A DNA stretch of 64,000 bases from Pseudooceanicola sediminis (GTDB lineage Bacteria > Pseudomonadota > Alphaproteobacteria > Rhodobacterales > Rhodobacteraceae): the NCBI RefSeq assembly GCF_003575965.1, contig NZ_QWJJ01000006.1:124001-188000 (forward strand), written 5' to 3'. The position numbers were made by a program, and so were the translations under genes. Positions within the stretch are counted from its first letter, which is position 1; every line of letters starts with the position of its first letter. This document shows positions 56,994-62,256 of this stretch, piece after piece. A model generated the notes under the pieces. It made no database searches. It was not told the DNA's origin and saw nothing but the letters and a program-made list of their open reading frames with translations.

Positions 56994-57188
56994 CACCTTC
57001 TGCGGCAGCGGCGATGGACCACTTGGTGACCTCTGTGGCGGGGATCGCGCAATCGTGTAGCCCAAGTGATCGCCAAACAGCCTCAACAGACTGAAACGGC
57101 GGGGCAATTGCACTATCGTCAGGCGTGTATACGCCAGCGGATTTCGCACCCCTCCGCCAAGGTCCCGGACGCAAGAGGAGACAGTCAG

Positions 57189-58415
57189 ATGCACAACGCC
57201 GAACACCACCGTCCCAAATGCCTGCCCGCCCACAGGCAACTGCTAGGCGCATTGGCGTTTGCAATAGCCCCCGTCGTCGCGGCGGCCCAAGGTTTCAACG
57301 ACATCCCACCCAATGCCAGCGGACAGACCCCTGCTTTTGCAGACCAAACCCGCGCGCCCGTCATTGCCGACGATCTGCGCCTTGATCGTCAGGTCATTGC
57401 ATCCGGGTTGGTCAACCCCTGGGGCATGGACCAGTTGCCTGATGGGCGATGGCTGGTCACCGAACGCCCGGGCCGCCTTCGGATCGTCTCTGCCGATGGC
57501 ACCGTCTCGGAGCCTGTTGCCGGCCTGCCGGAAATCGACGCACGCCGCCAGGGTGGCCTGCTGGATGTGGTTGTTCGCCCGGACTTCGACCAGACGCACC
57601 GCCTGTGGTTCAGCTTTTCACAACCCAGGGGCAATGGCACCAATGCAACCGCCGTGGCCACCGGCGTGCTGTCACAGGATGAACAGCGCCTGGAACAGGT
57701 CAAGGTGATCTTTCAGCAACAGCCCGCCTGGGCATCGACCGCCCATTTCGGTTCGCGCCTGGTCTTCGATGGGAACGGCGCGCTCTTCGTCACGACAGGC
57801 GAACGGTCCCTGCCCGGTCCGCGCGCGCTGGCGCAGGACGTCGGGACGCATCTGGGAAAGGTGCTTCGCATCGACCCTATGGGGGGGCCCGCAGCAGGAA
57901 ATCCCGACATTCCCGGAGGATTGCCCGAGATCTGGTCCTGGGGTCATCGCAACATCCAGTCCGCCGCGCTCGGACCCGACGGTGCGCTGTGGACGGTGGA
58001 ACATGGCCCGCGTGGCGGCGACGAACTGAACCGTCCCGAGGCAGGGCGCAATTACGGTTGGCCTGTCATCACCTATGGTGAGGATTATTCGGGCCGTCCC
58101 ATCGGCCAGGGATTGACCGCACAACAGGGGATGGAGCAGCCAGTCTATTACTGGGATCCGGTGATCGCCCCCTCGGGAATGGTGTTTTACGATGCTGCGA
58201 TGTTTTCAGGCTGGCAGGGCAGCGCGCTGATCGGAGGGCTGGCAAGCCAAGCTCTGATACGGCTTGAGATTGACGGGGGCCGGGTGCGTGGAGAGGCACG
58301 GTACCTGGAGGGTCAAGGCCGTGTGCGGGACGTGGACCAAGCGCAGGACGGTGCCGTCATTCTATTGATCGACGCCGACGATGGTGCGCTGGTCCGCGTG
58401 ACCCCTGCCCGCTGA
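57189..58415 (+). CDS. Soluble PQQ-dependent aldose sugar dehydrogenase (YliI type)
   Basis: A periplasmic six-bladed beta-propeller, 408 residues including a signal region (LLGALAFAIAPVVAAAQG). ASGLVNPWGMDQLPDGRWLVTERPGRLRIV and GGLLDVVVRPDF match the PQQ/GDH family, with the later HGPRGGDELNRPEAGRNYGWP segment around the cofactor site. It would oxidise aldoses to lactones with PQQ. No PQQ synthesis genes are in the window. The start at 57189 has GAGGAG eight bases upstream. Confidence 0.9.
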   Translation: MHNAEHHRPKCLPAHRQLLGALAFAIAPVVAAAQGFNDIPPNASGQTPAFADQTRAPVIADDLRLDRQVIASGLVNPWGMDQLPDGRWLVTERPGRLRIVSADGTVSEPVAGLPEIDARRQGGLLDVVVRPDFDQTHRLWFSFSQPRGNGTNATAVATGVLSQDEQRLEQVKVIFQQQPAWASTAHFGSRLVFDGNGALFVTTGERSLPGPRALAQDVGTHLGKVLRIDPMGGPAAGNPDIPGGLPEIWSWGHRNIQSAALGPDGALWTVEHGPRGGDELNRPEAGRNYGWPVITYGEDYSGRPIGQGLTAQQGMEQPVYYWDPVIAPSGMVFYDAAMFSGWQGSALIGGLASQALIRLEIDGGRVRGEARYLEGQGRVRDVDQAQDGAVILLIDADDGALVRVTPAR

Positions 58416-58963: not shown

Positions 58964-58969
58964 ATGACA

Positions 58970-60196
58970 ATGACCGACAAGAACCCCGACAAAGGCTATG
59001 TTGCCATTCTGGGCTGGAGCCTGAACGCCATCAATGCGATCGACCAGTTCGACCGCCGCTATGTCGTGGTGGCGCCGCCTTGGGCACAAGATTACTGCGC
59101 GCAAAATGACATCCCTTTCGTACCTTGGGATTTCGACCGTTTGAACGAACGCTCCTACGAGCTGGCGCAACAGCTGAAGGAGATGGGCGTCGACGTGGCG
59201 ATCCCGATATTCGAAGAAACCGTGGAATGGGCCGGCGCGATCAACGCCGTGCTGCTGAACCAGCCGCGCCTGTTGGGACAGGCAATGCTGTTCCGCGACA
59301 AGTCACTGATGAAGCGGCGCGCTCAGCTGGGCGGTATCCGCGTCGGCGTGTTCGAAGAGGCACATGACCGCGGCGATGTGATCCGATTTTTGAAGCGGGT
59401 CAACCAGACCCTGCTCAAGCTGGATGGCGACGTGAACGATCCGATCCACTTCAAGGCCTTCGACAAGTCCGGCACCGCCGGGCACCGGGTGATCCGCAGT
59501 CCCGAAGACGTCGACAATATCCCCGAAGATGAATTTCCCGCCCTGCTGGAAAGCCACCTGGATGGCTGGGAGTTTGCGGTCGAGGCCTGGATCAAGAACG
59601 GCAAGATCCAGTTTCTGAACATTTCGGAATACGTCACGCTGGGGTATTCGGTCTTTGTGCCGGCCACGCCCGAACTGGAACAACACCGGGCGCGCATCAC
59701 TGAACAGATCGAGAAACTGATCGAGACGTTCGAGATCGACTTCGGCTTCATCCACCCCGAGTATTTCCTGACCAGCGACAACACGCTGTACTTTGGCGAG
59801 GTTGCCTATCGCCCACCGGGCTTCAATGCCCTGGAGCTGATCGAGCGGGCATATAGTTTCAACGGCTATCAGGGCCTTGTCGTCGCGTTCGATCCCAAAA
59901 CGACGCAGGAAGAACTGGACGCCTTTTTCCCGACACCAATCGAAGACGCCAAGGGGTTCGCCGGCTGCTTTGGCGTCTATCCGCGCCGCCGCGTGGTCAG
60001 CAAATTGGAAATTCCCCAGGAAACTGCCGATCACCCCTATTTCGAATTCCACGAGCTGGCGGATCCGCGCGAACAGAAGGTCGCGAAACGATCGGCCTTT
60101 GGCACACACTGGGGGCTGGCGTATTTCTTTGGTGACGACCCACACCAATTGCGCGATCTTCTCAAGCAACAAGAAGAACTGGACTATTACATCTGA
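58970..60196 (+). CDS. ATP-grasp ligase of unknown substrate
   Basis: About 408 residues with an ATP-grasp fold like carbamoyl-phosphate synthase or biotin carboxylase relatives. It starts GYVAILGWSLNAINAIDQF (pre-ATP-grasp), then has a lysine-bearing loop HFKAFDKSGTAGHRV, and the metal-binding site is probably GEVAYRPPG after FGFIHPEYFLTSDNTLYF. Such enzymes join a carboxylate to an amine or thiol using ATP. No signal peptide, so cytoplasmic. I prefer the ATG at 58970, eight bases after GGAAGG; the ATG at 58964 is only two bases away. Its stop overlaps the next gene start by one base (TGATG), so the two are co-translated. Confidence 0.85.
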   Translation: MTDKNPDKGYVAILGWSLNAINAIDQFDRRYVVVAPPWAQDYCAQNDIPFVPWDFDRLNERSYELAQQLKEMGVDVAIPIFEETVEWAGAINAVLLNQPRLLGQAMLFRDKSLMKRRAQLGGIRVGVFEEAHDRGDVIRFLKRVNQTLLKLDGDVNDPIHFKAFDKSGTAGHRVIRSPEDVDNIPEDEFPALLESHLDGWEFAVEAWIKNGKIQFLNISEYVTLGYSVFVPATPELEQHRARITEQIEKLIETFEIDFGFIHPEYFLTSDNTLYFGEVAYRPPGFNALELIERAYSFNGYQGLVVAFDPKTTQEELDAFFPTPIEDAKGFAGCFGVYPRRRVVSKLEIPQETADHPYFEFHELADPREQKVAKRSAFGTHWGLAYFFGDDPHQLRDLLKQQEELDYYI

Positions 60197-62256
60197 TGAC
60201 TTCCTCCGGCACGGCCCCCGAGGGCCGCGAACGCGTCAATGACGGCGCGCGGGCGGCACGTCTTGCGGAAACGCTGGACGTGGCGATCGCGCGGCTGGAA
60301 CCTGCGCGCCCCTTTGCCAAGCCGCGGTATCAGCGCGCCGTGCTGGATGTGACGGCGCGGCTGTTGCAGACCGAGGGTGGCCTGGACGTGATCCGTTCCC
60401 GCGCGATGCAGATGGATGCAGCGGGCTTGTTCGCCGGGTCTGATTGGGACCGGCCAGAAGCCTTGTTGCCGCAGTTGGTCGGCACCACGTTGATGGCTGA
60501 CGACCCGATCTTTGTTGCACTTGAGGCTGCCAGCCTTGCCCGCTTTCTGGCGGTCGCGAACGGTGAGGGCCGCCACGAAAACCTGCACAAGGACATGGCG
60601 GTGCACTTTCTGACACAGGTGCTGGCCCTGAACCTGAAGGACATTTTCGGCCAATCCGATGAAGCGAGCCGGGCGCTCGGGGATCGAATGGTGATCAAGC
60701 GCCAACTGCTGAACTATATCTCGGAGCATATCGGGCTGACCGACGTGCTGGGCGTCCTGGTGAGCGAGATCTGGCGCTTGCTGGAGCAACGGTCCGTGCA
60801 GGTCGCCGTTGCCAAGGACATGATCGCCCAGATTGCCATCGCGCTGGATCAAAAAGGCACCGAGCCGGGCAGCGAACGGCTGGGCGCAGAGCGCCTGGTC
60901 AGCGCGTTGTTCGGGCCGACCGTCGCATCGTTGGACGATCCGGGCATCGACGTTTACCTGGATCGCATCGCCCATTTCGACGAAACCGCCCTGTCGCGCG
61001 AGGCAATGGGGTTTGCACGTGCGATGCACGACACCGGCCTGGTTTCAGACTATCATGCGGCCTTTCTTGTCTGGGCGCTCGACTATCGTGATCGCCCTCT
61101 GGTGCCCGAGGCGCTAGGCCTTGGCACGACAGGTCTGGACTGCTGGCGGCATTATCGTCGCCTGATCGAGGATCTGATCCGCACCGCCGTCAGCCCGACG
61201 ACGCCACAGGCCGCCTATGGGCTGGCGATGCTGCTGGAGCGCGGCGTATTGCACCACGCGCCCATGGTCCCCGCGCTGCACCGTCACATGCAGCAAAAGG
61301 TGCAGGGGGACGCGCGCCAACGTCTGAGGCTGAGCTTTGGCGACGCTGTGTCGCCCGAGGCCCATCTGCTGGCAGGTGTGCTGCAGGTGATCGGACAGCC
61401 ACTTGGCGTCGGCCAGGGCGCGAACCCGACCTGCCAATCCGCGCGCGCCATTTCGATGTGGGCGTTGATCGAGCCCGATTTCCTTTTGCACCTGATCTCT
61501 CAGGCCTGTGAATTCGACACCGTCTTGATGCAATTCGAAGGCACACAGATCAACTCTGCCGATCTACCGGCCGGCCTGGCCGGGCACGGCCCTATTGATG
61601 CCGATCCGGTTTCGGTTCTGCTGGTCTCGCATCTGGACAGGATCTACGCGGAAATGGGCCGCCTTTGCCTTGGCCGCGAAGGGGACCCTCACCGCTGGAT
61701 CAATCCGCAGTTTCACGGCTGGTGGGTGGCGCGCGACTGTGCCGTGGCTGTTGACGTGGCAACGGGTGAACTGGCCGGGTACGACCGTTTCCTGCGTCGT
61801 TTCTTTGCGGCCTATCATCCGCATCACAACGGCGACCGCCCCGTCAGCCACCCCCAGCCTGCCGGAATTGCCGTCACCGACCCGAACCAGCAGTTCGTCG
61901 GCTGGCACGCCATCGCGATCCTGCGGGTCAGCGCAGATCAGGCCGGTGTCATGCGCGTCTATTTCTACAACCCCAACAACGACAGCGGCCAGGATTGGGG
62001 CGGGGGCGTCGTCGTATCGACCAGCGGCAACGGGGAACGCTATGGCGAGGGATCGCTGGAATTTGGCCAATTCCTGTCCCGGGTCTACCTGTTTCACGAT
62101 GACCCACTGCGCAGCGCCGAGGCGGCCGATGCGGTTCCCGACGCAGAATTGCCCCCGATCCATGCGCAGGCCGCTGCCAGCTGGGCCGCGGATCGCCTGC
62201 CGCAGGCAGCGCCTGCCGTCGTGCAGGATAAGATGGGCACGGAGCCGCCCGAATAG
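60196..62256 (+). CDS. Large uncharacterised protein with a papain-like catalytic quartet
   Basis: 686 residues, no family recognised and no signal peptide. The first 400 residues are mainly helical. From about 405 there is a papain-like pattern in the right order: Q407 and C413 in GQGANPTCQSARA (Q six residues before C, as in papain), H571 in VGWHAIAI, and N592 in YFYNPNNDSGQDWGGG, followed by W601-G602. Q/C/H/N with these spacings is the oxyanion and catalytic set of papain-fold peptidases and amidases. Coupled to the ATP-grasp gene by a one-base overlap. The family is inference; the conserved residues are seen directly. Confidence 0.7.
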   Translation: MTSSGTAPEGRERVNDGARAARLAETLDVAIARLEPARPFAKPRYQRAVLDVTARLLQTEGGLDVIRSRAMQMDAAGLFAGSDWDRPEALLPQLVGTTLMADDPIFVALEAASLARFLAVANGEGRHENLHKDMAVHFLTQVLALNLKDIFGQSDEASRALGDRMVIKRQLLNYISEHIGLTDVLGVLVSEIWRLLEQRSVQVAVAKDMIAQIAIALDQKGTEPGSERLGAERLVSALFGPTVASLDDPGIDVYLDRIAHFDETALSREAMGFARAMHDTGLVSDYHAAFLVWALDYRDRPLVPEALGLGTTGLDCWRHYRRLIEDLIRTAVSPTTPQAAYGLAMLLERGVLHHAPMVPALHRHMQQKVQGDARQRLRLSFGDAVSPEAHLLAGVLQVIGQPLGVGQGANPTCQSARAISMWALIEPDFLLHLISQACEFDTVLMQFEGTQINSADLPAGLAGHGPIDADPVSVLLVSHLDRIYAEMGRLCLGREGDPHRWINPQFHGWWVARDCAVAVDVATGELAGYDRFLRRFFAAYHPHHNGDRPVSHPQPAGIAVTDPNQQFVGWHAIAILRVSADQAGVMRVYFYNPNNDSGQDWGGGVVVSTSGNGERYGEGSLEFGQFLSRVYLFHDDPLRSAEAADAVPDAELPPIHAQAAASWAADRLPQAAPAVVQDKMGTEPPE

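Follow-up and report, generated by a model that had tools for sequence, protein, structure and literature searches.

Glutathionylspermidine synthetase/amidase (Gss) pairs an ATP-grasp ligase with an opposing papain-fold (CHAP) amidase. The placing of CHAP in the papain fold is described in the accessible part of PMC10318531. The N-acetylglutaminylglutamine amide (NAGGN) system of Pseudomonas and Sinorhizobium (asnO, ngg and a peptidase) likewise joins a peptide-bond-forming enzyme to a peptidase and serves osmoadaptation; it comprises an acetyltransferase that also forms a peptide bond, an asparagine-synthase-type amidotransferase and a glutamyl aminopeptidase (excerpts of PMC8070244). In RimK/RimB and RloC/RloA an ATP-grasp enzyme is genetically tied to a protease, retropepsin-like in both, and Rlo has been linked to osmotic stress (excerpts of PMC12239564). 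According to the accessible sections of a 2005 review, the enzymes behind certain amide and dipeptide solutes in halophiles were then unexplored (PMC1224877); those of NAGGN, at least, were named later (PMC8070244, same excerpts). The locus described here lies in a stretch of 64,000 nucleotides from Pseudooceanicola sediminis (contig NZ_QWJJ01000006.1, positions 124,001 to 188,000), referred to as the window, and is formed by an ATP-grasp gene followed by the gene of a 686-residue papain-like protein.

The distribution of the two genes supports a true pair, inherited together. It is tentatively proposed that in salt-adapted bacteria they form a self-sufficient unit of ligase and hydrolase, setting the level of an osmoadaptation compound. 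The features of the pair, in window coordinates, are the following.

58970..60196, plus strand: ATP-grasp gene, putative L-amino acid ligase type, 408 residues counted from the second ATG (the open reading frame, ORF, opens at 58964)
60194..60198, plus strand: TGATG stop/start overlap of both genes, read in the sequence
60196..62256, plus strand: ORF of the 686-residue protein, with an N-terminal helical region and a predicted C-terminal papain-like cysteine hydrolase domain
60196..61317, plus strand: N-terminal helical region, residues 1-374, possibly an alpha-solenoid
61318..62106, plus strand: predicted papain-like domain, residues 375-637
61414..61434, plus strand: Q407-x5-C413 motif, Q and C invariant across all 74 homologues
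61906..61971, plus strand: H571 to N592, H and N invariant across all 74 homologues

Position 60196 is both the end of the ATP-grasp ORF and the start of the 686-residue ORF on the same strand, and the one-base overlap reported in the initial annotation is thus confirmed from ORFs and sequence. The start at 58970 is more likely than that at 58964 because most aligned homologues begin at the second ATG. The papain-like gene is single-copy in the window's genome.

The initial annotation had recognised Q407, C413, H571 and N592 in papain order in a protein of no known family, and both statements hold. When the protein was shuffled 5000 times, a comparable motif (Q-x5-C, H 100-250 residues on and N 15-30 past H) appeared in 614 cases, so the motif alone is near chance; it is nevertheless meaningful, since all four residues are identical in the 74 aligned homologues, where 84 of the 686 columns are invariant overall. 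In the AF2 model (predicted local distance difference test, pLDDT, 91.4) C413 opens a helix (413-425), H571 lies within a strand (567-580) and N592 falls just past another (586-591), a placement that is the papain order. The domain 375-637 aligned in the fold search to several separate papain-fold families with modest Z, calpain and a deubiquitinase being among the matches, and the helical N-terminal region gave weak rows to protein-binding solenoids. Two of the defining features of clan CA are supported, the papain-like fold as predicted and, at the level of aligned residues, the ordered and conserved Gln, Cys, His and Asn. No match was found in Pfam (E<=1), NCBIfam, PADLOC, PHROGs or PDB sequences, and the protein is best described as a probable cysteine hydrolase of papain fold that belongs to no curated family. 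A defence or phage origin was considered and rejected: PADLOC and PHROGs gave no match, no phage record was among the hits and none was confirmed in viral contigs.

The sole Pfam match of the ATP-grasp protein at E<=1 is ATP-grasp_4, sub-threshold at 23.6 bits against a cut-off of 27, and the NCBIfam models fall far under theirs; no curated threshold for L-amino acid ligases is reached in either collection. The best fold matches of its predicted model (pLDDT 80.8) are L-amino acid ligases in both programs, occupying the top five rows in VIA and ranks 1, 3 and 4 in Foldseek. PurK-type enzymes score about 3 Z units lower, and 4dim, an entry titled phosphoribosylglycinamide synthetase, is nearly tied with the ligases (within 1 Z unit). 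Since the nearest fold is that of the L-amino acid ligases, the product may be a small amide or dipeptide, as a first guess rather than a proof.

The papain-like gene was searched in 390 genomes of the window's order, with 16 matches of which 15 were kept; the sixteenth (G149) lies inside a GlnE gene and was dropped as chance. In all 15 carriers the ATP-grasp gene precedes the papain-like gene on the same strand, with an overlap or at most about 400 bases between the two. Among 398 genomes of the phylum, the profiles of both proteins match the identical 11. The family f51 is taken for Halomonadaceae, as alignments of its sampled loci to named loci of Halomonas and Vreelandella extend over 3.2-5.0 of about 5.0 kb. 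It comprises 121 genomes, with both genes in 73, neither in 47 and a papain fragment only in one; this count leaves out the papain-like fragments of G861 and one of two G871 pieces, and one ATP-grasp fragment each of G767 and G871. The ATP-grasp gene is upstream within 1 kb in 68 of these genomes. Exceptions are G792 and G845 (ATP-grasp directly downstream of a papain-like copy) and G800, G822 and G841 (both genes far apart or on separate contigs), and 19 of the 90 papain-like places have no ATP-grasp within 1 kb.

A scan of genome contigs gave at least 594 pattern matches, with at least 589 confirmed (stretches, not species), from which the best 80 loci were kept. A same-strand upstream ATP-grasp match is present in 78 of them, covering at least 90% of the query in 75; it is partial in L055, L065 and L029 and absent in L047 and L069. 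Inter-ORF spacing over 75 named loci, with starts chosen mechanically, ranges from -98 to +760 bases and is mostly -8 to +65. The distance matrices of the two proteins match across named-locus pairs, and the median identity over 70 pairs is 76% for the ATP-grasp protein against 54% for its papain-like partner. Two separate ORFs are found in the window and in the carriers mapped. The sole joined frame, in Roseovarius lutimaris (L029:9666-11548), runs from ATP-grasp residues 1-126 directly into papain-like residue 154 onward and is apparently a deletion fusing both genes. In L005:1507-4742 (G384) the papain-like gene is 75% identical to that of the window and the paired ATP-grasp just 72%, as if partners had been exchanged. 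Halomonas sp. PA16-9 has a copy on a 1.8-Mb record that is listed as a plasmid. The predicted papain-like fold, the conserved quartet and the joint occurrence of both genes, whose absence would have spoken against the initial annotation, were all found.

Going by record names, the carriers appear mostly marine or saline, habitats which we presume from the organism names. Ectoine synthase (EctC, PF06339) was searched in 80 of the 390 genomes of the order, that is all 15 carriers and 65 non-carriers spaced through the list, and was identified in 15 of 15 carriers versus 21 of 65 non-carriers (p 8e-7, ancestry uncorrected; one of the 21 is a 47-residue fragment). A control family, the photosynthetic reaction centre, was present in 6 of 15 and 26 of 65, respectively. 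In f55, EctC occurs in all 51 carriers versus 22 of 29 non-carriers (80 of 81 genomes, ancestry uncorrected, omitting G874, which has papain-like gene fragments only). Of the 80 named loci, 32 were taken, mostly from outside Halomonas and Rhodobacteraceae, and EctC was identified in 30 of the 31 whose genomes were searched, the exception being the 2.9-Mb Desulfobulbaceae metagenome-assembled genome (MAG) of L057; L034 and G124 are probably one genome (identical match coordinates). These tests cover the window's order, f55 and the named loci, f51 standing outside them. In the genomes tested the pair occurs almost only alongside ectoine synthase, which is often found without the pair, and the EctC-positive carriers span proteobacteria, Desulfobacteraceae and Desulfobulbaceae MAGs and actinobacteria. 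The association is a proxy for salinity as much as for ectoine. The ect clusters of carriers and non-carriers showed no difference, apart from ectC-like genes without neighbours in non-carriers: in 5 of 20 non-carrier loci (L274, L276, L277, L285 and L287) no ectAB cluster stands alongside. The cluster maps of carriers L257 and L260 are partial in the ORF calls, EctC included, and EctC there is the PF06339 match; the names ectA, ectB, ask and regulator are our assumption, EctC being the one assigned by Pfam.

The analysis shows by computation the invariant residues and predicted folds, the coupling and co-inheritance of the genes and the association with ectoine synthase; the gene pair and the ectoine link hint at a make-and-break chemistry of salt-adapted bacteria. 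Judging by its fold, the ATP-grasp enzyme would turn a carboxylate into an acyl phosphate and couple it to an amine, giving, as with L-amino acid ligases, a small amino-acid amide or dipeptide. The papain-fold enzyme, from its fold and the invariant Q-C-H-N, would cleave the amide via C413. The co-occurrence with ectoine synthase suggests that an osmoadaptation compound may be made at high salt and removed when salt drops. The initial annotation had proposed a ligase/amidase pair like Gss; a true ATP-grasp/hydrolase pair of separate, coupled genes stands, the making and breaking of an amide by it is what we infer, and kinship with Gss is unsupported.

A narrower and rather doubtful version is that, in ectoine producers, what the pair makes and breaks would be a so far undescribed compatible solute, or else an ectoine-pathway intermediate (e.g. 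diaminobutyrate) in conjugated form. It would then be a second, hidden osmolyte system of a ligase and its own papain-fold hydrolase, with no other dedicated gene, probably in hundreds of species, and a missing component in a well-studied physiology. At least 589 stretches encode relatives, yet the papain-like half has no curated family and the ATP-grasp half a sub-threshold match, and the pair marks a subset of the ectoine-synthase genomes among those tested. No description of it was found in an open-access library among the matches listed, a mention in Iyer et al. 2009 on amidoligases being possible.

In the window the pair is preceded by a glucose/sorbosone dehydrogenase-type gene (57066-58415) and a flavin adenine dinucleotide (FAD) oxidoreductase gene, and followed by a LysR-like regulator on the opposite strand, named by eye, and an ATP-binding cassette (ABC) permease gene. 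At other loci, 128 of 193 non-redundant nearest neighbours were scanned with Pfam, paralogue loci past L199 being excluded; the family of the window's dehydrogenase recurs in two of them. In these 128, 171 Pfam families were recognised, each in three members at most and arginase in two (no control set was scanned), and no functional theme emerges. The recurrent neighbours over 95 loci are ABC ATPases in 24 (either strand) and a downstream TlyA-like gene in 22, the latter being among the genes of Halomonas-type synteny; no third gene recurs with the pair as a dedicated partner (ORFs under 80-90 aa were outside the scan).

Paralogues were seen in f55 (L146-L153 and L191-L230), with at most 6 papain-like matches in a genome, counting fragments, and additional ATP-grasp copies, some divergent or solitary, accompanied by an ATP-grasp form that is longer, at about 435 aa. 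Most second papain-like copies mapped there stand alone. A polyamine-type ABC transporter, named by eye, precedes a papain-like paralogue in L151:5941-11870, L207, L211 and L212, with a gap of 4 bases in three of the four loci and 193 bases in L212, and HDAC-family or arginase-family genes adjoin some paralogues; transporter and enzyme names (e.g. acetylpolyamine amidohydrolase-like for the HDAC family) are partly our assumption. HDAC-family genes are common in carriers (79 of 80 genomes searched, 1-8 each where found), so some chance adjacency is expected. Among L017-L111 and L146-L156, GCS2 and AstE-like genes were identified near a papain-like copy in 2 loci; in L147:9278-13867 and L153:9025-14841 the papain-like paralogue is near GCS2-type carboxylate-amine ligase and AstE/AspA-like deacylase genes.

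The main rival of the small-amide reading is reversible protein modification, a possible though doubtful alternative in which a protein would be tagged with an amino acid or short peptide by the ATP-grasp enzyme and freed of the tag by the papain-like enzyme, whose helical region would serve as guide, as RimK/RimB, a known precedent, act on ribosomal protein S6 (excerpts of PMC12239564). The solenoid rows and the calpain and deubiquitinase matches suit a macromolecular substrate, and the unusual conservation of the ATP-grasp protein relative to its partner agrees with this. However, the fold searches group it with the L-amino acid ligases, which act on small molecules, the RimK model is not among its Pfam matches at E<=1 and no recurrent third gene offers a target, though a target may be encoded anywhere.

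A one-direction pathway, where the papain-like protein would be a transferase, cyclase or maturation protease processing the ligase product further rather than acting as an antagonist, is unlikely. Acetyltransferases and deamidases are also found among papain-fold proteins (accessible part of PMC10318531) and the genes are closely spaced, as though needed jointly, but solitary papain-like copies exist and no further recurrent gene is nearby, a short precursor peptide being possible among ORFs below the scanned size. Quite improbable is a sharing of habitat only, with separate salt-adaptation genes of independent function kept together by selection or transfer: the presumed saline habitats and the plasmid-listed copy would fit, but spacing is close in most loci, the distance matrices match, co-occurrence is near-perfect even in the three genomes with unlinked genes, and ectoine synthase, with the same habitat, is often found without the pair. 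A metabolism of glutathionylspermidine-type or other polyamine amides, retained as a weak alternative on account of the transporter, HDAC-family and arginase-family genes beside paralogues, is very improbable given the lack of GSP_synth and CHAP matches in Pfam, the themeless neighbours and the HDAC-family adjacency expected by chance.

The ligase/hydrolase module preferred here would share with Gss an ATP-grasp ligase and a papain-fold amidase as opposing activities; the halves are fused in Gss and separate genes here, with no single polypeptide joining both in the window or the carriers mapped, the apparent deletion in L029 aside, and the ATP-grasp is nearest another branch, the L-amino acid ligases. 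Kinship finds no support: no GSP-synthetase-type domain was found besides ATP-grasp_4 in Pfam at E<=1, where the 686-residue protein has no family, CHAP included, and no CHAP entry is among the fold matches listed. RimK/RimB and RloC/RloA differ in their ATP-grasp family and in an aspartic instead of a cysteine protease, and rlo has an extra membrane partner, RloB; no RimK match was obtained in Pfam at E<=1 and the hydrolase here is predicted to be papain-fold. Unlike NAGGN, the present pair consists of two genes only, with a papain-like hydrolase, and no NAGGN-type acetyltransferase-ligase with an adjoining amidotransferase gene was identified, the ATP-grasp protein having 408 aa and one Pfam match and no third gene recurring. 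The L-amino acid ligases (BacD/YwfE, BL00235 and RizA) are the closest fold to the ATP-grasp protein, at 13-17% identity; unlike them, it has a papain-like partner, and its Pfam match is sub-threshold. With the clan CA peptidases (calpain, staphopain, Pd_dinase and cathepsin B) the 686-residue protein shares the Q-C-H-N order, the predicted Cys helix and the alignment of domain 375-637.
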